DNA from: Cephalotus follicularis
Lineage: Eukaryota; Streptophyta; Magnoliopsida; Oxalidales; Cephalotaceae
NCBI GenBank assembly: GCA_001972305.1
Contig: BDDD01000062.1
Span: 292,352-356,351, forward strand
DNA length: 64,000 nucleotides
Direction of reading: 5' to 3'
Position 1 is the stretch's first letter. Each line of letters opens with the position of its first letter. Made by a program: the position numbers and the translations under genes. A model generated the notes under the pieces. That model made no database searches. It was not told the origin of the DNA and saw only the letters and a program-made list of their open reading frames with translations. This document shows positions 7,336-43,490 of the stretch, piece by piece.

Positions 7336-7572
7336 AGTCTTAGGTGCTCCTTGAGAGGAGTCTTAGGTGCTCCTCGGGAGGAGTCTTAGGGTGCTCCTCG
7401 GGGGGAGTCTTTGGTGCTCCTCTGGGGGAGTCTTAGGTGCTCCTCGATGGGAGTCTTAGGGTGCTCCTGGGGGGAGTCTTTGGTGATCCTCATATGGAGT
7501 CTTAGGTACTCCTCGGGAGGAGTCTTAGGTGCTCCTCGAGGGGAGTCTTAAGTGCTCCTCGGGAGGAGTCTT
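7336..7572. repeat. 23-bp tandem repeat in the Tat-A 3' untranslated region
   Basis: About ten imperfect head-to-tail copies of a 23-24 bp unit of the form GAGTCTTAGGTGCTCCTCGG. It lies between the end of pol (7796, minus) and the antisense ORF, inside the 3' untranslated region (6819-7795). That region also holds a block shared with Tat-B and Tat-C (about 7670-7735 here, 19590-19640 in Tat-B, 38780-38830 in Tat-C). Confidence 0.9.
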
Positions 7573-16800: not shown

Positions 16801-19800
16801 AGCAAATGAAGTTCTTTCTTGATATAAAGGTTTATCAATCTTCTTCTACTTCCTAGAGCTAAGTTTAAGTTCCTAAGATCCAAGTTTGGAGTTATGAGCA
16901 AAAACTTCAAAGATGATTGAAGGATAAAGTATTTTTTTTTAGGAAAAATCTCATAATAGCACTATAAAAAAGTAGTGATTTTTCAATTTGACGCACACAA
17001 TTTCTTTTCTTAATTTGGTACGTTACAGTGAAAAAAAAACCCAATGTAGTGCACGACGTCAGCTGCTGTTAACAAAATTGGGAGAAACCTATGAAATGAC
17101 ATTGTTTTGTATAACGACAGTTGACGGTGTTTCGAAGGTTTTTCCTGAAACGGTTTCGTTTCAGGGGTTTCTCCTGATTCTGTTAATAGCAGTTAGTGGC
17201 GTGCGCCACATTGAAATTTTTTTCACTGTAGTGCATCAAAGTGGGAAAAAATTTTGTGCATCAAATTTATTGATGCGGAAATCAACTTCACAACAGTTGT
17301 CCACTTGTGGAGGTTTGATTTGTTGAGAAAAGCGTTGGATGCTCTAAAGAAGGTACTGGGTTTAAGTTTTCTGGTCTTTCTTGCACACAAATAAGGCAAA
17401 CTATCAAAAGTCTAGGAGTTTTTACTCCCGGGGATCCTCCAATGCTTAAGTCAGTTGTTTTGCAGAGAAGATAAAGTAAGAGTACGGTGAGTTGGTCGAC
17501 CCCCTCATAGTCTTCCTTGAGGGTATTTATAGCTATACCTGTTGTAACTGTCTCTGACTTTCTCATCATCATGGAGGAGATTAATGGTCCCTTAGAAACA
17601 TTGAGTGTTTCCTCATCTTTAATTTAAGGAGTTATTTCCCCATTATCACCACGATGCTGGGCGTTTTACCCATGTTTTTGGGTTTAAGTGACACGTGTCA
17701 AGCCTTATTAATACAAGAATTTTTCTCATATCTGTGGCCCCCTTTCTCCTTCTTCTCTGAACTTTGTAGAGGAGGAGGAGCATTTATGAGATGGTCTTGC
17801 TTGAGCAGGTCTTGCTGCTCAATTGAGCCCATTTTGGCTTACAGGATTCTCTCGCTTTTGGGGAGTCAAGCAGACTTACAGACTAGCTACTCCTGAGGAA
17901 GGACACTTTGGTTGGGGCCGTGGAAGACTTCAAGGCTTAGGCCGAGTTTTAAGGTGGCTGCTCTTCATCCTGAGGTTCCTCTGACTCTCTGCAGGAGAAA
18001 GAGTCACAGAGGGCAGAGCTTCCAGATTTGACTGTCCTGTCTTCCGTTGATGATGCCGAAGAGCTTCCTCTCTCTGAGCCTGCTTCAGAGACCGTTGTTG
18101 CTCCTCAGCCCTAAGACCTAGCTCCAGAGCCCTAGCTTCTGTATTTCTATTTGCATGGTTCCTTTGTATTTTTATAATTGTTATTCTGGCAATGCAATAA
18201 AACTTTGTTTTTTGTTTCATTTAGTCTGGCGTCTCCAAACTTTGTCGATTTGAGCTCTTCAATTCCCTCAGGAAAATTTGCATGAGATCGCCCAATATCT
18301 TCCGTACTGGCCTGATATTTTTCAGACCAGGTCTCCTGGGGGCACTTGTATCAAAGCGCTCAACCAATGAGACTTGGTCTTCGTAGATCAAAATATGTTT
18401 TAGGTCTGGTCTGACAAGTTCTTATGGGTTTGCAAACCAAGATTTCGTACTGGTCTGATAATTTTCAGACTAGATATCCTGAGCTTTTTAGCCCCCATGG
18501 GAGCATTTGTATCAAAGCGTTCAACCAACAAAATTGATCTTTGCGAGTTCTTACGTATTCGCAGATCAAGATACGATTTTAGGTCTGGTCTGACAAGTTC
18601 TTATAGGTTTACAGACCATGATCTTCTCCCTAGGGATCCTTTGAATAAGCTTGTATTAAAGCTTGGAGAGCTATGTAACTGTATCAAGGACCTGCTCTAA
18701 TTGCTCCGTTGGGAGTCTTGAATAAGCTTTTATTAAAGCTTTAGTCTGCTTGAGACTGGGAGAGCTGTGGTCCTGTATCAAGGACCTGCTTTGATTTCTC
18801 CCTTGGGAGTCTTTAATAAGCTTGTATTAAAGCTTTAAAGGAGTCTGCTTCAGACTTGGAAAGCTGTGGACCTATATCAAGGACCTGCTCGAATTGCTCC
18901 CTTGGTAGTTTTTGAATAAGCTTGTATTAAAGTTTTAAAGGAGTCTTCTTCAAACTTGGAGAGTTGTGGACCTGTATCAAGGCCCTGATCTGACCAAATC
19001 AGACTTCAAGAGCTATGGTCCTGTATTAAGAACTTGCTCTGACCAAAGCAAACTTCTGGAGCTAGGGTCATTTATTAAGGACGTGCTCTGACTGAAGCAG
19101 ACTTCGAGAGCTAGGGTCCTGTATTAAGGACTTGCTCTGACCAAAGCAGACTTTGGGAGCTAGGGTCCTTTATTAAGTACTTGCGTTTATCGAAGCAGAC
19201 TTCGGGAGCTAGGGTCCTTTATTAAGGACTTGCTCTAACCGAAGCAGACTTTGGGAGCTAGGGTCCTGTATTAAGGACTTGCTCTGACCGAAGCAGGCTT
19301 CGGGAGCTATGGTCCTTTATTAAGGATGTGCTCTGACCCAAGCAGACTTTGGGAGCTAGAGTCCTGTATTAAGGACTTGATTTGACCGAAGCAGTCTTCG
19401 GGAGCTAAGGTCCTGTATTTTGGGAGTTATTCGGCTGTGAGTTTTGAATGAGCCTTTATTAAGGTTTTATCCTCTATACTGTTAAACATGTATTAAGGCT
19501 TTATCCTCCATACTGTTAAGCCTGAATTAAGGTTTGGAAAGCCCTGGTTCTGTATCAAAGATCTGCTCTGACAGAACTGTTGAAGGCTTTTTAGAGGTTT
19601 AAGAACGTGAATATTGGACCTCTAGTCCCTTGCAAACTTGAAACTGATTCTTGTGTTCAAGAGACATCATCTTTATTGAATGGATTGAACATTTGTACAT
19701 ACTTCACTAATAGCACTTCTCTGTTGATGACCTCTGCTTGGCCACTGTTTGCTGCCTCTCTGGGAAAAAGTTTCACTTCTTCTGCTTGGTCGGGGGTTGC

Positions 19801-27727: not shown

Positions 27728-29696
27728 ATGCCTCCGAGGAAGCACATCAACAACTATTCCGGTGCGGGTGGAAGCCAGCCTGCCGCTGGAAGCGATCCAG
27801 CCCAAACTGCTTAAGCGGTCGCCGTCATAGAACAGGCTCCCGTTACGGGGGAGCGATTGAACCAAATGATTGAAGGGGTGGAGCGCCTCACCGAGTTGCT
27901 CACCGCCGCCTTGGCAAACCAACAACGTGCCAGAGCTGTCCCGTCAGCGATCCGAGGAGTTTCTGGCCACAACAGGCCAGTGGTGGAGATTGGGCACCCC
28001 CGAGGTGCCAGGCGAAATCGTCCAAGGGGAGACGAACTTCCCCCTAGGCGGTTAGGGGACGACCTTCCCCTGGGGAGGAGACCTGAGACCCATATATCTC
28101 AGAGGGCAGAGTCCTCAACTGCCCGGGATCAGCCCAACGATCCCAGAAGGGCGCGTCCTGAGCGCCAGCCAATGGAAGTGGATCCCCAAGTTGAGTCCCG
28201 GGGTGCGGAGCAGGCACCGGTGCGCTCCAACGCTTCGCGCAGAGCGGGAGCGAAGCAGAAGAGCAGGCATGACCACACAGCCGCTTTGGCCGGGGGGTCA
28301 CGTGTTTCTAGCAGGGCCAGGAACATTGAAGACGTGGAGCAGGCAATGAACAGAAGGCTTGCGGAGATGGAGAGAAGGCTCCAAGGAGCCGAGAAGCCAA
28401 AGGGATATCTGGCGGAGGTGCGTAGCCTCAGCGCCCACCCATTCACAACAGAGATCATGGAGGAGCGCATCCCCAGCGGATACCAGCTCCCTAGCCTCGA
28501 CAAATATGACGGGTCTGCAGATCCCCTCCAACATGTCCGCACCTACATTCAAACCATGCTGGTGCACCAGGCCTCGGACACTACACACTGCCGAGGTTTC
28601 CCGGCGACGCTGACTGGATCTGCCCAATCATGGTTCTCAACCCTGGCTCAGAAGTCGGTGGAGGATTTTGATCAACTTACGGAGATGTTCGTCACTAAAT
28701 TCCTCAACAGCACCACGTAGAGGCGGAACTCCACCCATCTGATCAATGTGGTGCAGGGGAGGGACGAGCCACTGAGGGACTACCTCACTAGGTTCAACAA
28801 GGAGTCCCTCACGGTGAAGGACCTAGAGCCATCTTTCGCCATGGCAGCATTGAACAACGACCTGAGGAACAACTCCTCTTTCACTTTCTCCCTTCTGAAG
28901 AGGCCAGCCCTGGATATGGCCGACCTGCTGAGGAGAGCAGAGAGATATGTGAATGCGGAGGAGGAGATGGCGGCCAAAAACAAAAAACCCCCTGGTCGGG
29001 CCATCAGGAGGAGATATGGGAGCATTCACGAAATGCCCCCGAAAAAAAGGAAAAGAAGAGGGAGAGGTCGGACTTGACCAAGGACGACCTTCGACACAAG
29101 CTCTCCAGGAGGGAAGGCTCGACTCAGGGAGGGGCACCTATCCCTTCCTACAAAAACTTCGCCCCCCTCCTGGACACACGCACCAGGATACTTGTCGTGG
29201 AGCAGGATAAGGTCCCCATTCAGTGGCCTGAGAAGCTGAGGTCCCCAACAGAGAAGAGGGACGTGGAGAAATACTGCAGGTACCACCGCGACCATGGGCA
29301 CGATACCGAGGAATACAGGCAGGTGAAGAACCAGATTGAGGATTTGATCCGGAGGGGGCATTTGCGCAAGTATGTGGATAGAGAGGCTCCCCAAGGAAGA
29401 AGGGAGAAAAGGAAGGAAGAGGCCCCTCGGCGGGAGGAAGAGCAGCAGCAAAAGCCCAGGGGTGTTATCCACACCATCTCTGGGGGGGTCGCGTCTGGTG
29501 ACGACCATAAGAATGCCAGGAAAGCCTATGGGAGGCAGTCCCTGGCGGTACAGCAGGTCCATCACAGCAAGAGGTTGAGGACTGGCGGAGATGAGGAGGT
29601 TATATCCTTCTCCGAGGCAGACTATGAGGGAGTACGTCTCCCTCACGATGATCTAGTGGTGGTAACTCTTATGGTGGAACTTTTCACCATGAAAAG
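27728..29696 (+). pseudogene. Tat-C gag, 5' part, up to the nested insertion
   Basis: ATG at 27728 (MPPRKHINNYSG). There are in-frame stops at 27812-27814 and 28718-28720 (CAG-like to TAG), and a frameshift at the A-run near 29040. The capsid domain (KYDGSADPLQHVRTYIQ, FVTKFLN) lies around 28490-28720. The zinc-finger-like CRYHRDHGHDTEE region is near 29275; the final Cys of the family motif reads Tyr. The frame then enters the protease linker (VELFTMK) and is cut by the Copia insertion at 29697. The rest of the polyprotein resumes at 35014. Confidence 0.9.
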
Positions 29697-30528
29697 TGAA
29701 AGTAATGTATGGCAATCTTAAACAAGAAAATTGTATGCGGAAATTACAATTTAAACTATGAATGTAAACAATCTCACAATAACAAATAAATTAAAGAGTT
29801 AAGGGATAGAGATTATGCAAACGGATTTATAGTGGTTCGGCAAATCCGTGCCTACGTCCACTTTCTCAAGAACCCCTTGAGTTTCCACTAGAATCCACTA
29901 GCAACCTTTGATTTTTCGCTTACGGGTGCAAATCAAAGCAAACCACCTTACACTTGATTTGGATTCCGGGTGCAAATCAAACAAACACCTTACAAGGGTT
30001 CACTCCCCTCAAATACAAAGAATGATAAAAGTGAATTGTGTTGTGTTTACAATAACCTCTCAAAGGATGGATATGAAAGTGCTAGCTTAGTTACAAGCTT
30101 TGGATATTGATTTGAAAGATGTAAAATAGCTCTAGTGTTGCTTGGAAGTAATATGTATTTGCTTGTTATCTCTTGATATGTCTCTTGTGTAAAAATACCA
30201 CATTCTTCCTTTTATAGAGATCCTCCAACGGATCTATTTTTAGGCATTCAGACCAAATCCAGCCGGCTGGATTTTCCTTGCAGTCGGCTGGTAAAATGTT
30301 GTGCATTTGTAATTATAGCCGTTGGAGGGAGGCAGACGGCTGGATGGACTGGGCAGTCGACTGGAAAGCCTTGGCAGTCGACTGATGCTCTGTTCCAGTC
30401 GGCTGTTTGGGCTAGAAATTCGATTTCCAAAGCTCCTAATATTGCATGATTTTGACATTTAACATACTGAAATTAACTCATCTATCATTTATCAAGTCTT
30501 AAGCATTTGTCCAAGTAATTTAGCAACA
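29697..30528 (-). repeat. 3' LTR of the nested Copia element (short form)
   Basis: 29697-30433 aligns base for base with 33936-34672. The remaining roughly 95 bp to 30528 do not match the other LTR. The outer edge here is placed at TGTTGC (minus, 30528) next to a purine tract; alternatively the LTR is simply truncated at 30433. The TATA box is at about 30209-30216. Confidence 0.75.
30259..30406. repeat. Palindrome array in the 3' LTR (6 copies, 21-bp spacing)
   Basis: Copies of the 12-mer CCAGTCGACTGG-like palindrome start at 30259, 30280, 30332, 30353, 30374 and 30395. Spacing within clusters is exactly 21 bp, while the 9 bases between copies vary. The array lies upstream of the LTR TATA box when read on minus. 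Confidence 0.9.
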
Positions 30529-31017
30529 ATTCTCCCCCTTTTTGTATGCCTCGTTTCAAAAAGACAATATAAAAGCAATGTATACTTAAGCAATTTTGCA
30601 AATGCAATACTCAATTTTACCAATCTATCAACATCAATCTTATCAATGCAATACCAATAAAACATAATCAATAAAACATCTCCCCCTTTTTGTCAAGCAA
30701 CAAAAAAAGTTGAAAGAGACTCCCCCTTATTCATAGCATATGTGTAAGCCTTTTAACAATGGGCTTGAGTAAAAGCAAATTTTTCTTTAACTAAGTCATA
30801 CTCAAATTTAAAATATGGAGAGGAACCATAATAACAAGCATAACCTTTATATATATTCAACTCCATCAACACAATATATAACAATGCAAGTTTATTACAT
30901 AAACTTCAAAGTCATCTTACAATAAAAACACCAAGTTTCTCAAACACAAATTACAAAAATCATAACAAGTTCATCACACAATACAAAATGAAAATGTGAT
31001 ATGCATAAGATGTTTGC

Positions 31018-32133
31018 TCAAGAAGATCCGGGAAGTGGTGGTTGAGGGAAGGCATTTTGGAGCATTCGGATCACTTGGGCCATTTGTGCGTCTTGGGAGT
31101 CTAAGCGATCATAAATTTGATCCACCCTTCCTTGAATGTATTCCATCTTTGCTTGTAGAGACTCCATGGTTGGCCGACTAATACCACTTCCACTTCCACT
31201 TCCACTTCCACTTGGCCTCACTTTGAATCTATCTCCGTCATCATCTTTTTCCTCTTCTTCACTGACATCTCTCCCAATATCTACATCCGGTTCCCTTACC
31301 GGTGCTCTTCCTCCAGCTTGTATCTTTACCCATAAACCATCTTCGAACTTGATATTACAATTCCTTAAACCGGCTTTATTGATCAATTGTTTGGATTTTG
31401 GTTTGACATTGTATTAATCATTTAGGTCAATATCTAGGGTAGCTAGAATCCTACTTAAGAGCATAGGATATGGGAGGTGATTTGGTCTTGACAAAATATG
31501 GTTGACAATAAGGTATGGGAGATTGACAAGAGTTCCATTCTTTATGCAAGCTATTAACTTTAGGTCTCGCTCGGATGGGAGGGTATGCGAGCCTTCTCTT
31601 GGCAACAAAGTGTTGGTAACTAGCAAGAGGAGAATACGAGTAGCTATGGGCAAATGGCTACTAGTGACGGTCATAATGGGATTGACATTAGGCCGTTCTA
31701 AGCAAATTTTCAATGCATCGGATTTTTCGATATCATTAAAGTGTGTGATACCGGTGCATGGAATTCCTAGGGTTTCTCCTATGAATTCAGGGGTTATTTC
31801 AACAGCAACACCAAGAACAAAAGATTTGGCAAAACAATTAGAGGATTTATCTAGGTTAGCATAAAAAAGTTTCACTATCCTAGGGTAAATGGGGTGTGAT
31901 GAACACAAATAATCAAACCATCATAATTGTTCAAGCCATGGTCTAATAGAAGCAATATTGCAAGTTAAAACAGCCCTATCTAACCATTTCTCATTATGTA
32001 ATTTGACAGAATTCAAAGTGAAGGTATACCTCTCTTCATTTTCCTTTGAGAGGAATAAGTCACCATTATAATCCATCCTTGCACTTGAGCTTCCTTGCTT
32101 GGTTCCCACACTTTTCCTCTTCCTTGATGCCAT
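31018..32133 (-). pseudogene. Envelope-like / putative plant transposon protein ORF
   Basis: ATG at 32133 in a good plant context (ATCAATGGC), starting MASRKRKSVGTKQG. One frame runs 371 codons to 31018 with two internal stops (31921-31923 and 31414-31416). The N-terminus is basic. The middle (IYPRIVKLFYANL, then PEFIGETLGIP and LPYPMLLSRIL) resembles the envelope-like protein of SIRE-type Copia elements and the putative plant transposon protein domain (PF20167-like). The C-terminus has an acidic patch, a Gly-Ser run and a predicted short coiled coil (MESLQAKMEYIQGRVDQIYD). Function is unknown. Upstream lie a TATA-like box (32223-32230) and a palindrome array, as if it had its own promoter. 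Confidence 0.75.
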
Positions 32134-32222
32134 TGATGATAGAGGGACGATTTATGGGCGATTTTTAGGGTTTGGCAGTGTTTTTGGGAGAGAAGGTTGT
32201 GAGAGGGAAGGAGAAAAACGCG

Positions 32223-32230
32223 TTTTATAA
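32223..32230 (-). promoter_or_regulatory. TATA-like box before the envelope-like ORF
   Basis: On minus this reads TTATAAAA, followed by a CT-rich, AAACCCTAA-containing leader of about 90 bp and then the ATG at 32133. The palindrome array begins about 20 bp upstream. The arrangement copies that of the LTR promoter. This is inferred from sequence; no transcript is known. Confidence 0.5.
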
Positions 32231-32249
32231 AAAACTGTTCTGTGTAAAA

Positions 32250-32323
32250 ACAGTCGACTGGTGTCATTAGGCAGTCGACTGGATCATAGACAGTCGACTG
32301 GACCAGGACACCAGTCGGCTGGA
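32250..32323. repeat. Internal palindrome array (4 copies)
   Basis: Copies of the palindrome start at 32250, 32271, 32290 and 32311, so the spacing is 21, 19 and 21 bp. Three are perfect CAGTCGACTG, including a GTCGAC centre, and one is CAGTCGGCTG. Confidence 0.9.
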
Positions 32324-32671
32324 ATCTGCAGAAAATGAAATTGGCAGATTCGAGTCTTTTCTTTGATCCGAATAGTGACTTAGATATCTGAGCATTTTGA
32401 TATGATTGAGTTGAAAACTCAATGTTTGATGCAAGACATGTTTTAAAAACAAACATAAAATCAATCATGTAGTTGCATTCAAAAAATCATAGCACATATA
32501 CACATACCAATTGTCATGACATGTACAAAAACAAAAAGTACTTACTACACGCGTGCTCACTGATCATATTTATATCTTGATGTTCCATAGAACCATTTCC
32601 TTTGAGCACACCTACAAAGTAAGAAATTTAAACTTTTGGTACCCAAATAAATTTGGGTCCTTGAGTGTTAG

Positions 32672-33880
32672 TCACCTCTTTAAATCATCAATTTCTTTTG
32701 ACATAGAGATAGCATTTTTCTTTAAAGTCTTATTTTTCAAACAAGCATTCTCATACTCAACATATAAATTCTCATAAGCATTTTGTAATTCATCAAATGT
32801 AAAGTTTACCTCATTTTCTTCCTCATCCTCAATTGCCATGTAAGCAATGTGTGCAACTTCTTCATCGCTTTCCTCTTCGGAGCTTGAGGAGTCACTATCC
32901 GACCATGTGGCTACCATCGCTTTCTTCTTCTTGAAGTGTCCATTCTTTTTCTTGAATTGCTCTTTCTTTTTAAGGTTTGGACATTCGTTTTTGAAGTGGT
33001 CGGGCTTCTTGCATTCATAGCATGTTGGTTCTTCCCGTTTGCTTGGTTCTTCATCTTGAAGGTAATTCTTTTTGAAATTCGTTTTACCTTTTTGATTCTT
33101 GAGGAACCTTTTGAATTGGGAGGTAATAAGCGCAACATCTTCATCTTCATCACTTTCACTATCTTCCTTTGAAGCTTTGAAAGCGATTGCCTTTTTCTTC
33201 TTGACTTCCACATTCTCATGATTCTTCATTGTTGTCTCATGTGTCATCAAGGAGCCTAGGAGTTGTTCGAGTGGAAGAGTGGAAAGGTCCTTAGCCTCCT
33301 CAATTGCCGTCACTTTTGGAGTCCAACTCTTCGGCAAGCACCTCAAAATTTTCCTTACAAGTTCTTGGTTAGAATATGATTTGCCAAGATTATTAAGAGA
33401 ATTAATAATGGTAGTAAAGCGAGTAAACATATCACTAATACTCTCATTATCATGCATTATAAACAATTCATACTCATGTACAAGCATGCTTATTTTAGAT
33501 TCCTTAACTTGATTCGTGCCTTCATATGTGCCTTCTAATAAATCTCACATTTCTTTAGCCGAATCACACGAGGATATCCGATTAAATTCATTAGGGCCAA
33601 CGGCACAAAATAAAACATGTTTTGCTTTAGAATTTAATTGGAGCATCCTAAAGTCATTGTCATTATATTCATTTTCCGGTTTAGGAGAGACTACTCCTTC
33701 TATAGTTCTAGTGGGCATTCAAGGACCATTAACAATTATATGCCACAATTGATAGTCAAGGGATTGTAAAAATATGGTCATCCTAGTCTTCCAAAAGCTA
33801 TAGTTGTTTCCATCAAAAAATGGAGGTCTAGTAATGGAGGAACCTTCTAATCCCATGCTTAGGTTCATTTGGTTTGCCAT
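32672..33880 (-). pseudogene. Copia gag (UBN2 type) of the nested element
   Basis: ATG at 33880 (MANQMNLSMG), 43 bp after the primer site. One frame to 32672 with two stops (33719-33721 and 33545-33547, the latter at a usual Trp position). It contains FFDGNNYSFWKTRM near the start, the UBN2 core (ISDMFTRFTTIINSL, LRCLPKSWTPKVTAIEE), and a zinc knuckle CYECKKPDHFKNEC (CX2CX4HX4C) with Asp for the usual Gly. Lys-rich and Ser/Asp/Glu-rich tails follow. Just after the stop another frame shows GPKFIWVPK, the motif that precedes protease in SIRE-type elements. Sequence homologous to pol ends there. Confidence 0.85.
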
Positions 33881-33922
33881 GGATCTTTATATCTCTAACA
33901 ATTAAGAATAAAGAGATAACCT

Positions 33923-33933
33923 CTCTGATACCA
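33923..33933 (-). promoter_or_regulatory. Primer-binding site of the nested Copia element
   Basis: TGGTATCAGAG on minus, two bases inside the 5' LTR end, complementary to initiator tRNA-Met as in most plant Copia elements. Confidence 0.85.
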
Positions 33934-33935
33934 AC

Positions 33936-35008
33936 TGAAAGTAATGTATGGCAACCTTAAACAAGAAAATTGTATGCGGAAATTACAATTTAAACTATGA
34001 ATGTAAACAATCTCACAATAACAAATAAATTAAAGAGTTAAGGGATAGAGATTGTGCAAACGGATTTATAGTGGTTCGGCAAATCCGTGCCTACGTCCAC
34101 TTTTTCAAGAACCCCTTGAGTTTCCACTAGTTACCACTAGCAACCTTTGATTTTCGGCTTACGGGTGCAAATCAAAGCAAACCACCTTACACTTGATTTG
34201 GGTTCCGGGTGCAAATCAAACAAACACCTTACAAGGGTTCACTCCCCTCAAATACAAAGAATGATAAAAGTGAATTGTGTTGTGTTTACAATAACCTCTC
34301 AAAGGCTGGATATGAAAGTGCTAGCTTAGTTACAAGCTTTGGATATTGATTTGAAAGATGTAGAATAGCTCTAGTGTTGCTTGGAAGTAATGTATATTTG
34401 CTTGTTATCTCTTGATATGTCTCTTGTGTAAAAATACCACATTCTTCCTTTTATAGAGATCCTCCAACGGATCTATTTTTAGGCATTCAGACCAAATCCA
34501 GTCGGCTGGATTTTCCTTGCAATCGGCTGGTAAAATGTTGTGCATTTGTAATTATAGCCGTTGGAGGGAGGCAGTCGGCTGGATGGACTGGGCAGTCGAC
34601 TGGAAAGCCTTGGCAGTCGACTGATGCTCTGTTCCAGTCGGCTGTTTGGGCTAGAAATTCGATTTCCAAAGCCACTGGTTGAATTGTGCATTTCTTGGCA
34701 GTCAGCTGGAAAGCCTTGGCAATCGACTGGATTGTCACGGCAGTCGACTGGGGACCTGAGGCAGTCGGCTGGCTGGAGTGCAAATGAAGTTTCTGGGTTT
34801 GTTTGAAGGTCCAGTCGGCTGGTCATACTTGGGCAGTCAACTGGATTGCCTGTTTCTGCAATATAAAACCATTGCAACACTTTCAACATTACAACCAAGT
34901 GAGTATATGATATCAAAACATGCATATAAGTGTTTCTTGATTGTTACTTGTTTGTTAATCATCGAAACATAATCTTTAACACAATTAAAGGGGTGGCAAA
35001 ACCCAACA
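33936..35008 (-). repeat. 5' LTR of the nested Copia element (long form)
   Basis: 1073 bp, TGTTGGG...CTTTCA on minus. The TATA box TATAAAAG is at about 34456-34449. U3 holds the 12-copy palindrome array and an outer part absent from the other LTR. Confidence 0.9.
34498..34843. repeat. Palindrome array in the 5' LTR (12 copies, 21-bp spacing)
   Basis: 12-mers close to CCAGTCGACTGG start at 34498, 34519; 34571, 34592, 34613, 34634; 34698, 34719, 34740, 34761; 34811, 34832. Within each cluster the step is exactly 21 bp, with variable 9-bp spacers. The nearest copy is about 42 bp upstream of the TATA box (minus). Confidence 0.95.
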
Positions 35009-35013
35009 AAAAG

Positions 35014-38000
35014 AATCCAGATTGACAGTGGCAGCTCAACCGACATCCTGTACAAGCACGCCTTTGATTAGTTAAGGATACCGGTCGATCAGCTGAAGCC
35101 AGTGAAGACCCCACTGGTCGGGTTTGCAGGGGAGATGGTCCATCCCCTGGGATCCATCAACCTGTCGGTGGTTGCAGGCACAGCTCCTCGCCAAACCCAG
35201 GTGCAGATGACTTTCCTGGTGGTTGACACGCCCAGCCCATACAATGCAATAATCGGGTGACCAGGGCTGAACCTGATGGAGGCGATAGCGTCCACGAGGC
35301 ACCTACTCATGAAGTTCCCCATAATGTTTGGCGTGGGAGAAGCCAGAGGGGACCAGCAGGCGGCCAGGCAGTGCTATAAGACTGCAGTTACGGACCGCGG
35401 GAAGGACAAGGTTCTCCCCATCGCGAACGTGGAGCTCAGAGGGGACGTGGAACCTGAGCGTCCACAGCCTGGTGAAGATGTGGTCCAAGTGCCGCTGGAG
35501 GCGGGCAACCCCGAGAGGGTCTTCCAAGTCGGCTCACAGCTCGGAGAGGTGGAGCAGGAGGAATTAATAACATTCCTCCGAAATAACAGAGATGGGTTTG
35601 CCTGGTCGACAGAGGAGGTCCCCGGGATCAGCCCAAGCGTAATGGTTCACAAACTAAGTGTGGACCCAGCGAGGACCCCGACCAGGCAGAAGAAGAGGAA
35701 CTTTGCTCCTGAGCGTCAGCAGGCAATAGCCGATTAGGTGAGCAAGCTCATGCACGCAGGGTTCGTAAGGGAGGTGCAGTACTCAGACTGGTTGGCGAAT
35801 CCGGTCCTAGTCAAAAAGGCAAACGACAAGTGGAGGATGTGCATTGACTTCACAGACCTCAACAAGGCTTGTCCTAAGGATCATTTCCCTCTTCCAAAGA
35901 TAGACCAGCTGGTGGATGGACCTCGGGCTACCGAATGTTGAGCTTCTTGGACGCTTACTCGGGGTACAATCAGATCCCTATGTATGAGCCCGATGAAGAC
36001 AAGACAGCTTTTATCACTGAGCGGGGGATGTATTGTTATAAGGTCATGCCCTTTGGTTTGAAGAATGCAGGGGCCACCTACCAACGACTGGTCAGTAAGA
36101 TCTTCGAGCCCCAGATTGTGAGGAACATGGAGGTCTATATCGATGACATGCTCGTCAAAACCCCAGACAGGAGCCTCCACATCAAAGACCTGAAGGAGAC
36201 ATTTGAGGTACTGAGAAGATATCAAATGAAACTCAATCCTTCCAAGTGCACTTTTGGGGTCACCTCGGGCAAGTTCCTGGGGTTCATGGTCTCAGGCAGA
36301 GGAATAGAGGCCAACCCGGAGAAGATCTCAGCGGTTCAAGATCTGAGGCCTCCCCAAACCGTCAGGGATGTGCAAAAGCTGAATGGAAGGATAGCGGCCT
36401 TGAGTAGGTTTGTTTCGAAGTCAGCAGAAAAATGCCTCCCGTTCTTCAGGGTGCTGAGGGACCCCAAGGGGTTTTCCTGGTCAGATGAATGCCAAGCAGC
36501 CTTCGACAAGTTAAAAGAGTACCTGGCTTCCCCGCCCATGATCTCAAAGCCTAAGGACGGGGAAGACTTGTATTTGTACCTTGCGTCCACCCCGGGCGCA
36601 GTGAGTGCAGTGCTGGTCAGGGAGGAAGAGAAGGCTCAAAGGCCGGTGTACTATGTGAGCAAGGTGTTGAAATATGCTGAGGGGAGGTACCCGGAGGTGG
36701 AGAAGTTCGCCTATGCTTTGATCATCGTAGCCAGAAAATTAAGGCAGTATTTTCAAGCCCATACAATCAAAGTTCTGACTGACAATCCACTCAAGCAAGT
36801 TCTCGCAAAGCCTGACACCTCGGGCAGGCTAATCAAGTGGTCGGTCGAGCTAGGCGAGTATGATGTTAAGTTCGAAGCCAGGACAACAATCAAGTCACAG
36901 GTTCTGGCAGACTTCGTTGGAGACAATACACCTACGGAGTGTATGGAGGAGGACCCCTCTGAGAGCGAGAGGGAGAGATGGAAGTTATTCGTGGATGGCT
37001 CTTCCTGCATCACGGGCAGTGGAGCAGGGCTGGTATTGGTAAGTCCAAGTGGGTGGACATTGGAGTATGCTCTGAGGTTCGGCTTCAAAGCCACAAACAA
37101 CGAAGCTGAATGGGAAGCTCTTATAGCCGGGCTGACAATTGCGAAGCATATAGAGGTACAGAGGATAGAAGCATCCAGTGATTCTCAGCTAGTGGTTGGT
37201 CTGGCCTGTGGAGATTACGAGCCCCGAGAGGATTCAATGGCAAGATACTTATCACACTTCCGGAATTTGAAGCCAGCTTTCGAAGTTCTCAGAGTTATGA
37301 AGATACCCAAGGCAGAAAATGCCCAGCAGACCAGCTATCAAAACTAGCCACTGCAGGGGAGCTAGAGAAGAATCAAACCGTGCTGGTAAATTACTTGGAC
37401 AGGCCCACCATCTCCGGGGTAGATGTGATGGACATTGACTTACCCCAGGAGTCGAACTGGATGGCCCCATTTATTAACTGGCTAAGGGATGGAAGTTTAC
37501 TCGAGAACCCCGTGGAGACAAGAAAACTGGTATACAGAGCGAACAGATTTCAGCTCCGTGATAGGATTCTCTACAAAAGGTCCTTTTCATTCCCCTGGCT
37601 GAGATGCCTGGCTCCCCTAGAGGCTGATTATGCTCTAAGAGAGGTCCATGAGGGAGTGTGTGGCAACCATACAGGGGGCAGGACGTTGTCCCACAAGCTG
37701 CTAAGGCAAGGCTATTATTGGCCGACTTTGCAACAAGACGTTGTTGACTTGGTAAGGAAATGTAACAAGTGCCAGAGGAATGCAAATATAAGCAGAAGAC
37801 CTTCTCAGCCTCTGACATCTATAACGGCCCCCTGGCCCTTGGCATAATAGGGGATGGATTTCGTGGGACCACTTCCAATGGCGACAGGCCAGAGGAAGTT
37901 CCTCATTGTAGCAGTGGACTATTTTACCAAGTGGGTAGAGGCAGAACCCCTAGCCACTATCACAGAGAAGAACACCGAAATCTTCGTGTGGAAGTCCATC

Positions 38001-38684
38001 ATCTGCAGATTCGGAGTCCTCAAGACAATAGTCTCGGATAATGGGAAACAGTTTGACTGCCAGGCTTTCCGGGACTTTTGCCAAGAGTGGAGAATAAAGC
38101 ATAGGCTCGCCTCTGTGGCCTACCCCCAGAGCAATGGCCAAGCAGAGGTAATAAACAGAGAAATCATCTTGGGCTTGAAGAAGCGCCTTGAAGACAACAA
38201 GGGAAGATGGACTGAGGAGCTACCAAGTATTTTGTGGGCGTATAGAACTACTCCTCAGACCACGACTGGGGAGTCCCCATTCAGTCTTTGCTTCGGAGCG
38301 GAGGCCATGATACCGGTGAAGATTGGTGTCCAGTCACCAAGGGTTGTGCACTTTACAGAGCAGAACAACGAAGCAAGGCTTAGATGCCTCCTTGATCTGG
38401 TAGGAGAGCTCAGAGACAAGGCCGCCATCAGAGTCGCAGCTTACCAACAAAGGGTGAGCCGTTACTACAACAAGAGGGTGAGTCCCAGACCACTAAGGCA
38501 AGGAGATCTGGTCCTGCGCAACTCAGCGATTTCAGACCCCACCGGTACTAGAGGAAAGCTAGCCCCTGCCTGGGAGGGGCCATACAAGATCAAGAGAGTA
38601 CTCCGACCAGGAACATTCAAACTTGGAACTCTGGGGGGTAGGGAGATTTTCAGAGTTTGGAATGCTGAGCATCTGAGGAAATAA
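35014..38684 (+). pseudogene. Tat-C protease, RT, two RNase H domains, integrase
   Basis: Resumes after the nested element. The protease has an intact IDSGSSTDIL. Stops are at 35069-35071, 35258-35260, 35735-35737 and, in tandem, 37845-37850. Frameshifts are near 35915 (inside RT) and 37325. RT has YIDDMLVK (about 36138). RNase H is followed by a second, archaeal-type RNase H (LFVDGSSCITGSGAG, ATNNEAEWEALIAGL), a hallmark of Tat elements. The integrase zinc site (HEGVCGNH...CNKCQ) is present, and the core has DYFTKWVEA, DNGKQF and EVINRE. The C-terminal part ends EHLRK. The enzyme motifs are intact although the frame is broken. Confidence 0.92.
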
Positions 38685-42649: not shown

Positions 42650-43167
42650 GGGTAGCTTAGACAAGGGAAGGGGTGAACAGAGATGGGCTCACCTGTGTTC
42701 TTGCGTTAGAAGGAAGATGAAGTTTGAAGGTGCGAAGGTCAAAAGCTTTTTTTCTGTTGCTCTTAGGGTTTGAGAATGCTTAAAGAGAACCCCTAGAGAA
42801 GGAAGGGGTATTTAAAGACCCCAAGGGTGAATCTGGGCCGTGGATCCCAAAGACCATCAAGGGTGGAGATCCCCCTGACAGTTCAGGAACGGTTAACGAA
42901 GGGTCATGCTCGGGCATCGAAACGTCAGACCTTTAAGATCTCGAAGGGACATGCGCAGGCATCGAAGCGTCAAGCGTTTAAAAAATCAAAAAATTACAGC
43001 GTAATGATGAGCATTAAGTGTGTATTAAGTGAGGGGGCATGGCTCGAGGCGACACCTGCCATACCCTACCTTAATTGACAGATGGGGTGGTTTGCTAGAC
43101 TTGGACCCAGTTCACCCAATGCGAGGTAAGGCCTAGGAAGGCCCCACAAGCCTACCCATGAGGGATC

Positions 43168-43490
43168 CTCGGCTCGGCCTCTTCCCTTCACCTGGTCAGC
43201 CCAGGAAGGCTCCGCACGCCTGCCCAGGAGGGGCCCTCGGCTCGGCCATTTCCCTTCGCCTGGTCAGCCCAGGAGGGCTCCGCACGCCTGCCCGGGAGGG
43301 GTCCTCAGCTCGGCCTCTTCCCTTCACCTGGTCAGCACAGGAAGGCTCTGCACGCCTGCCTAGGAGGGGTCCTCGGCTCGGCCTTTTCCCTTCGCCTGGT
43401 CAGCCCAGGAGGGCTCGGCACACCCGCCCAGGAGGGGTCCTCAGCTCGGCCTCTTCCCTCCGCCTGATCGGCCCAGGAAGGCTCCGTAAG
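43168..43490. repeat. 68-bp tandem repeat upstream of the Tat-C 3' LTR
   Basis: About 4.7 copies starting near 43168, 43236, 43304, 43372 and 43440. Each copy contains CTCGGCTCGGCC, TTCGCCTGGTCAGCCCAGGA and GGCTCCGCACGCCTGCCC. It is GC-rich and lies between the antisense ORF's promoter side and the polypurine tract. Confidence 0.92.

Follow-up and report, generated by a model that had tools for sequence, protein, structure and literature searches.

Palindrome arrays with a two-turn step in Copia and Ty3/Gypsy LTRs of Cephalotus follicularis, a candidate promoter module

Palindromic repeated motifs (RMs) that precede the TATA box of the LTR and, in elements with an ENV gene, that gene as well were described in 13 Sireviruses by Bousios et al. 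2010 (PMC2829016), with at least eight RM copies per element. Nearly all of these RMs have CGG-CCG cores and form CpG islands, and they were reported to be lacking in classic Copia elements, with Ty1/copia as the group compared (PMC2829016). The RMs were suspected to be sites for stress factors, with the factor left unidentified in that account (PMC2829016). Maize Sireviruses likewise have cis-regions rich in palindromes within the regulatory portion of the LTR; these evolve rapidly and are a hotspot for small RNAs (Bousios et al. 2016, as reported in PMC5311732). Part of what appears to be new below may already be contained in that work. Clustered LTR sites for a host factor, gained by duplication and retained in several lineages, are also known from the COPIA78/ONSEN heat elements (Pietzenuk et al. 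2016, PMC5059998), which resemble the arrays reported here in these respects but differ in having a known factor (HSFA2), tight nGAAn clusters, and gains in COPIA families.

The window analyzed here is a 64,000-nucleotide stretch of the C. follicularis genome (contig C62 of G000, 1.58 Gb in size; all loci with L numbers are from this same genome). Like the Sirevirus RMs, its palindromes occur in high copy before both an LTR TATA box and an ENV-like ORF (PMC2829016). The Vitis RM CGGTCGACCG, the Tnd-1 RM ACAATCGATTGT, and the window-type site CAGTCGACTG have a TCGA center in common, and all three fit CRRTCGAYYG (PMC2829016). In contrast to the published RMs, with their CGG-CCG signature and CpG island, the window site CAGYCGACTG has neither, although the Tnd-1 RM also lacks CGG-CCG (PMC2829016). 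Step length, polarity, and four-site blocks are not given for RMs in the available text of Bousios et al. 2010 (PMC2829016).

The window array and its host element

A first-pass annotation of the window had described twelve copies of a 12-bp palindrome at an exact 21-bp phase. There are indeed twelve sites, recognized by motif matches in the U3 of an LTR (34499 to 34843, minus strand) in runs of 2, 4, 4, and 2, and a TATA box is close by. The unit is shorter than had been proposed, since the perfect 12-mer CCAGTCGACTGG is found at none of the twelve sites (one to three mismatches each), while all twelve fit the sense sequence CAGYCGACTG with zero or one mismatch. Measured along the sense strand from one 10-mer start to the next, the steps are 22, 50, 21, 21, 21, 64, 21, 21, 21, 52, and 21, so that seven of the eight within-cluster steps have the annotated length and one is 22 bp; the last 12-mer starts at 34833 and not, as annotated, at 34832. 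Free variation of the 9-bp spacers was borne out, with mid-spacer information close to zero in the 370 sites described below. The array does lie upstream of the TATA box, but the sense strand is the minus strand, and the TATAAAA (34449 to 34455, read from 34455 to 34449) begins 44 bp past the last palindrome instead of about 42 bp. Matches to the 12-mer with up to three mismatches numbered 31 in the whole window, compared to a mean of 16.2 and a maximum of 27 in 100 shuffles.

With 12 copies and a TATA box at +44, the array has the features by which RMs were recognized, namely, at least eight copies of a palindrome ahead of the TATA box in the LTR. The GC content of the window array is 0.50 and its CpG observed/expected ratio is 0.59, compared to 0.57 for the whole window, and we rejected the cluster as a CpG island on this ratio. 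The CGG-CCG signature is likewise absent, the window-type site having CAG-CTG. Three other repeats were seen in the window: nine copies of a 49-bp unit with the inverted repeat CCGAAG..CTTCGG (18971 to 19419), which perhaps mark another LTR with palindromes of its own; ten copies of a 23-bp unit (7336 to 7572) downstream of a minus-strand integrase-like ORF; and a GC-rich 68-bp unit repeated five times (43131 to 43486).

The array belongs to a Sirevirus-like Copia LTR retrotransposon on the minus strand (29697 to 35008), flanked by matching AAAAG target-site duplications read from the sequence (left, 29692 to 29696; right, 35009 to 35013). In sense order, the element consists of the 5' LTR, primer site, gag, a second array, an ENV-like ORF, three copies of AGGGGGAG, and the 3' LTR; pol is missing from this copy. 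The 5' LTR (33936 to 35008, minus strand) has the ends TGTTGGG...CTTTCA and is followed by the primer-binding junction (33923 to 33935, minus strand), in which the LTR CA precedes GTTGG TATCAGAG. The gag gene (32672 to 33487, minus strand) is of Copia type with a zinc knuckle (PF14223, 6.6e-17; PF00098, 2.7e-4). The internal (linker) array (32250 to 32322, minus strand, motif matches) has four palindromes with steps of 21, 19, and 21, and a TATAAAA (32223 to 32229, minus strand) lies between it and the ENV-like ORF, a fragment matching PF20167 (31414 to 31908, minus strand; Pfam E value, 1.4e-21) with an ATG upstream at 32133 to 32131 and one in-frame stop between. Polypurine tract (PPT) octamers AGGGGGAG are at 30720 to 30727, 30680 to 30687, and 30532 to 30539, all on the minus strand. 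The 3' LTR, identified by similarity to the 5' LTR, is a remnant lacking its 5' end (29697 to 30434, minus strand) that is 97% identical to the 5' LTR over 300 bases (K2P, 0.0248 over 739 aligned bases) and holds six of the palindrome sites (30260 to 30405, minus strand, motif matches).

Several published marks of Sireviruses recur in the Copia elements that carry such arrays. Coding regions are of Copia type, with the PF14223 match of the window gag and an RVT_2 match (2.4e-77) in the L015 element. The Sirevirus junction CA-ATTGG-TATCAGAGC is exact in L016 and reads CAATTGGTATCAGAGA in L012, and the window and L007 elements have CAGTTGGTATCAGAGA, with 2 of 16 positions changed. Among four elements examined, the terminal PPT AGGGGGAG-AT stands directly before the TG (TGTTGG) of the 3' LTR as AGGGGGAGATTGTTGG in L007, L011, and L020, with one change in L012. 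PPT octamers are multiple, with three in the window element and three or four in L007, L011, L012, L020, L025, and L026. There is a C run close to the end of the LTR alignment in L020, the one element examined for it. The order in L015 is a pol ORF (RVT_2), a palindrome array, and a PF20167 ORF, and an array precedes the ENV-like gene in 8/8 Copia elements with a tblastn match to the window ENV-like ORF; these eight come from loci picked for arrays, and PF20167 itself was scanned in the window, L011, and L015. From its position, we infer that PF20167 is the Sirevirus ENV. By these published sequence marks, rather than by an RT tree, the Copia array carriers are classed as Sireviruses.

The Sirevirus copy is nested in a plus-strand Ty3/Gypsy element (27857 to 29691 and 35014 to 38684). 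By eye, the flanks of this element can be read through the insertion in a single frame (MK-R-IQIDSGSSTDILYK), indicating that the protease region was the insertion target. Two related elements have unusual structures: one (L011, 2625 to 7250) with 98.6% identical LTRs contains the ENV-like ORF only, with no gag match, and is a nonautonomous form; another (L020, 4330 to 5726) includes an exact 698-bp tandem duplication that takes in the internal array.

Site sequence, steps, and blocks across the genome

Exact site pairs at any step from 10 to 40 numbered 48,687 in the genome, compared to 166 for a reversed-pattern control, and the steps among the pairs listed (the first 100 on contig C1) were exclusively 19 to 22 and 27 to 28. 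This count provides a check free of the selection in our sample, in which L007 to L026 and L028 to L037 were chosen by a pattern requiring a step of 19 to 21 and hence have at least one such pair each. In a set of 370 sites (window plus 20 hit-centered loci), the ten core positions carry 1.2 to 2.0 bits, and the next base out and the one following it carry 0.23 and 0.31 bit. The conserved core is thus 10 bp, and the outer C/G of the proposed 12-bp unit holds only 0.23 bit. The commonest forms, with strands pooled, are CAGTCGACTG (145 sites) and CAGCCGACTG (107 sites).

Among the 279 steps of up to 30 bp in these loci, 5 were 19 bp, 69 were 20 bp, 168 were 21 bp, 17 were 22 bp, 1 was 23 bp, and 19 were 27 to 30 bp. 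The 21-bp step of the first-pass annotation is therefore the mode in related loci (168/279) but not a constant, with 259/279 steps falling between 19 and 22 bp. Ten later loci, drawn from the same pattern hits but retrieved only after the rules had been fixed, have 102 steps of up to 30 bp, and all but one of these are 20 to 22 bp. The two-turn step expected of related LTRs thus recurs both in the sampled loci and in the ten later ones.

With steps of 19 to 23 bp counted as continuous, 69 runs had four sites, compared to 27 with one, 45 with two, 12 with three, 1 with five, and 8 with six. Among 57 four-site blocks from long arrays, CAGCC predominates at the two end sites (42 and 40 blocks) and CAGTC at the two sites between them (40 and 38 blocks). 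Gaps between blocks of 49 to 52 and 60 to 65 bp recur, and one recurrent gap is 28 bp. In counts that include related copies, the circular concentration at 10.5 bp falls from 0.85 among steps of 30 bp or less to 0.55 among gaps longer than 40 bp. The earlier proposal that the sites occupy one DNA face consequently holds inside blocks and is lost between them. We rejected same-face phasing across the whole array, as gaps of 28, 50, 52, 60 to 65, and 72 bp are not locked to 10.5 bp.

Arrays in Ty3/Gypsy chromoviruses and their relation to the Copia arrays

In a first sample of 49 arrays, 20 clustered with Copia arrays, 27 fell in another similarity cluster (part of which was assigned to an element, L010 and L021 being the firm cases), and 2 stood alone. 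In L010, a gypsy b array is present in both LTRs, around Retrotrans_gag, Ty3_capsid, RT_RNaseH, and Integrase_H2C2 domains. In L021, gypsy a and gypsy b arrays are both present in each of two 2.7-kb LTRs flanking a Ty3-type gag. In L015, about 50 bp separate the end of an ORF with SH3_Tf2 and a weak chromodomain match (7.6e-5, below the Pfam cutoff) from the gypsy b LTR that follows it. Thus, arrays are present in Ty3/Gypsy LTRs, beyond Sireviruses, which were the one Copia lineage surveyed. The L010 and L021 LTRs end in GGGGTGTGACA, as do Del/Tekay type A LTRs (PMC4029996). Del/Tekay LTRs (Cruz et al. 2014, PMC4029996) are long and have a U5 GGG at -8 to -10, like those of the gypsy a/b carriers, and eudicot Del LTRs were reported there to be without CpG islands; the string "palindrom" is absent from the main text of that article, whereas the LTR here bears two palindrome arrays. 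With gag-pol plus chromodomain, a long LTR, and the U5 GGG as markers, the gypsy a/b carriers fit a Del/Tekay chromovirus. The open-license literature, to which the search was confined, yielded no account of gypsy LTRs with arrays of this kind, an absence that carries little weight.

A second gypsy family, B2, comprises arrays in L009, L013, L015, L019, and L022. In L022, the array follows a Chromo ORF (1.6e-6), and in L013, it precedes a primer site and gypsy gag, consistently in strand, and these neighbors place the two arrays in putative chromovirus LTRs; the assignment and orientation of the L009, L015, and L019 copies rest on similarity. Comparisons among these modules and the Copia LTR and Copia internal arrays exclude L027, L014, L024, two L023 arrays (4644 and 9897), one L015 array (7461), second LTR copies of one element, and the second L020 internal array, which is an exact duplicate.

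The asymmetric site variant has a strict polarity. Read in the sense of the element, CAGCC sites outnumber CAGTCGG sites 71:0 in Copia LTR, 7:0 in Copia internal, 8:0 in gypsy a, and 5:0 in gypsy b arrays, and B2 arrays show the reverse, 0:11. Across 64 sampled arrays, 226 sites follow the majority polarity of their own array and 2 oppose it, a labeling under which arrays with a single variant site agree trivially. CAGCC pairs of the same polarity number 32,561 genome-wide on both strands, compared to 92 for the control. Strict polarity is not predicted by a plain symmetric dimer; the dimeric binder of the first-pass annotation follows from the symmetry of the site but does not account for the polar variants. 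Two arrays in L024 (3293 to 3438 and 4243 to 4364) cluster with no other family, and one of them has mixed polarity; the locus holds a further Ty3/Gypsy gag.

The flanks and spacers also have sequences in common. In the orientation set by polarity, a GACAGA box lies at +8 past the last site in 4/8 Copia internal and 5/8 gypsy b arrays, and L012 (Copia) and L013 (gypsy b) both have CAGTCGACTGGAAATTCGACAGA. The box is at +9 in 4/5 B2 arrays, inverted, which puts it on the upstream side in B2 element sense; together with the 0:11 polarity, this indicates that B2 carries the module inverted. GACAGA was found beside 0/8 Copia LTR arrays and 0/7 gypsy a arrays. Copia LTR and B2 arrays have 42 spacer 6-mers in common (500 shuffles: mean, 16.3; maximum, 32), compared to 15 when B2 is reverse complemented, and Copia LTR and gypsy b arrays have 19 (shuffles: mean, 5.9; maximum, 18), compared to 1 when reversed; these shuffles preserve base counts only. 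In pooled spacers, shared words exceed shuffles for 7-mers (39 versus 8.5) and 6-mers (65 versus 37.4), while 5-mers show no excess (121 versus a mean of 115). The 6-mer excess is absent between Copia LTR and gypsy a and between Copia internal and any gypsy set, and wherever gypsy a or B2 is the gypsy partner in those comparisons, more words are shared after its reversal (16 versus 8, 9 versus 3, and 11 versus 3).

Taken together, the recurrence of site, step, and internal polarity in chromovirus LTRs, along with that of the flanking box in two out of three gypsy array types, indicates that the module was probably shared between the superfamilies. A polar module of four-site CAGYCGACTG blocks, often with GACAGA, may have passed between Copia Sireviruses and Ty3/Gypsy chromoviruses, at least for part of the arrays and inverted in one family. 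Two superfamilies whose coding regions are independent would then run on a single host transcription switch whose sites number in the tens of thousands in each genome; we put this forward tentatively, at somewhat less than an even chance. The superfamilies could instead have gained arrays independently on one host factor, with no exchange of DNA. In the case of heat elements, LTRs are known to have acquired factor sites repeatedly (PMC5059998), and the spacer 6-mers of Copia internal versus gypsy arrays and of Copia LTR versus gypsy a arrays are shared no more than by chance. The B2 box being one base off, the lack of a B2 LTR pair, and the richer reversed sets weaken the case for exchange and strengthen that for convergence. 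However, polarity within arrays and the GACAGA box at +8/+9 point to common descent, as does the excess of spacer words that Copia LTR arrays share with B2 and with gypsy b, which is confined to the polarity orientation (42 versus 15 and 19 versus 1), and we consider independent gain unlikely.

TATA placement, conservation, and candidate binding proteins

The distance to the TATA box is characteristic for several array types. The TATA box is at +43 to +45 in 7/8 Copia LTR arrays, +100 or +101 in 5/7 gypsy a arrays, and +110 to +127 in 4/5 B2 arrays. In Copia LTR arrays fetched later, it is at +44 to +46 in 9/9 (five flagged by the pattern and four with TATTTAA read from the flank). For gypsy b, no TATA was found up to 140 bp downstream (0/8), and TATAT/TATAA occurs at +247 to +266 in 7/8. 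The pattern is loose, as it also matches within 140 bp upstream in 7/8 Copia LTR (four at -73), 2/7 gypsy a, and 3/5 B2 arrays, and the evidential weight is in the fixed place of the TATA box, not in its mere presence. Of the Copia internal arrays, 1/8 has a strict TATA; at about +20, we found by eye TATAAAA (window), TTTAAA (5/8), or TTAAAA (2/8), followed by a CT-rich leader and the ENV-like ATG. In the window, this region (32131 to 32322) contains the internal array, TATAAAA, CT-rich leader, AAACCCTA, and ENV-like ATG, and the layout recurs in seven other Copia elements. It is possible that this array and TATAAAA form a promoter for the ENV-like gene.

Within resident elements, the palindromes have changed faster than their surroundings. 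In seven LTR pairs pooled, post-insertion changes numbered 29/750 in palindromes, 18/962 in spacers, and 136/6093 in flanks, with palindrome change exceeding that in spacers (Fisher P = 0.016) and in flanks (P = 0.011). The excess over spacers is seen in 5/7 pairs; it is absent in L007, and neither class has changed in L010. Transitions account for 24 of the 29 palindrome changes, and 12 of the 29 struck the central CG, as deamination of methylated CG would. These 12 changes are the one hint that bears on the first-pass suggestion of the CG-containing center as a possible methylation switch. Between elements, palindromes and spacers diverged by 6.1% and 27.9%, respectively, in gypsy b (8 elements), 11.4% and 35.4% in gypsy a (6 elements, without L010), 6.9% and 43.9% in Copia internal (8 elements), and 8.4% and 32.6% in Copia LTR arrays (7 elements, without L026), with flanks at 30 to 39%. 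Palindromes are thus 3.1 to 6.4 times less diverged than spacers in the four modules tested, a ratio somewhat inflated by near-consensus references, as sites were defined in one element and mismatches read in others, and based on counts that are not independent, as elements within a module are homologous. Faster loss in resident copies combined with retention between elements argues that selection keeps the sites while elements replicate.

Our best reading, which we consider likely, is that the array acts as an activating module upstream in the LTR promoter, is bound by a host protein, and is shared across superfamilies. The host protein would recognize CAGYCGACTG sites by their sequence and occupy blocks of about four of them, two turns apart, probably as a dimer and cooperatively. 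The symmetric 10-bp site, the two-turn step, and spacers constrained in length but free in sequence fit dimers lying side by side. Bound beside the TATA box, such a protein would drive transcription of the element, activation being suggested by the position of the arrays and their retention between elements, and the second array ahead of the ENV-like gene would probably serve that gene likewise. Protein-binding sites, as proposed in the first-pass annotation, remain the best reading, as conservation and step hold, but with phase inside blocks only. It had left open a host or an element protein, and arrays in the LTRs of chromoviruses, which are unrelated elements, favor the host.

We weighed other functions for the sites. 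They might serve an element-encoded protein (gag or ENV-like) that chromoviruses parasitize, as the second array stands before the ENV-like gene in all eight array-picked Copia elements that have this gene. However, Pfam identified no DNA-binding domain beyond the zinc knuckle in the gag or ENV-like ORF, a zf-C2H2 match in an ORF after gag in L027 is under the cutoff (24.1 versus 26.2 bits), and unrelated chromoviruses carry similar arrays, making an element protein improbable. Little credence can be given to a role at the RNA level, in which hairpins of the 3' LTR transcript would feed small-RNA silencing or aid packaging. The LTR palindromes of maize Sireviruses are small-RNA mapping hotspots (PMC5311732), and positions 34498 to 34645 fold better than shuffles (z = -3.3 sense and -5.9 antisense), but good folding is expected of any array of 10-bp palindromes. 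The sense variant tolerated, CAGCCGACTG, which creates a C-A mismatch, outnumbers the G-U-compatible CAGTCGGCTG by 91:0 in Copia plus gypsy a/b arrays (0:11 in B2), where a constraint on sense RNA would favor the opposite. Variant polarity thus disfavors RNA hairpins, though both strands fold well.

The host factor could be a DREB/CBF-type AP2 protein, as GTCGAC/GCCGAC resemble the CRT/DRE core CCGAC, in which case induction by cold or drought would be expected. Barley CBF1 prefers (G/a)(C/t)CGAC, and the commonest variant (107/370, strands collapsed) holds GCCGAC. A CCGAC element has also been proposed in the LTRs of the alfalfa MCIRE retrotransposon (PMC5059998). The outer CAG...CTG, however, is conserved about as well as the core (1.4 to 2.0 bits) and should be needless for a monomeric AP2 site, so that we doubt this assignment strongly. 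Neutral tandem duplication, with the phase merely the unit length, is very improbable, in agreement with the first-pass annotation: blocks look duplicated and the inter-block gaps of 49 to 52 and 60 to 65 bp recur, but spacers are 28 to 44% diverged and palindromes 6 to 11%, far from equal conservation and despite the faster post-insertion change of palindromes, and steps are mostly 19 to 22 bp though spacer letters are free. The same contrast between post-insertion and between-element divergence led us to reject a plain 21-bp minisatellite.

As far as the open-license literature was searched, the two-turn four-site blocks, the strict variant polarity, and the contrast between decay and conservation are new, as are the similar arrays in Ty3/Gypsy chromoviruses, the nearly fixed offset of GACAGA, and some similarity of spacers. 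Literature matches to CAGTCGACTGG, judged from titles and the starts of abstracts, look like primer or construct strings. Palindromes in Sirevirus LTRs have been known since 2010 without a binder or mechanism, and a compact grammar (a 10-bp site, two-turn step, four-site block, polarity, and fixed TATA distance) and a signature of selection are now added. Now that nearly the same grammar is seen in a superfamily unrelated to the first, the question of the repeat-binding protein becomes directly testable. If Copia and Gypsy elements do exchange promoter modules, this would mean coregulation of a plant's retrotransposons and a shared target for the host.
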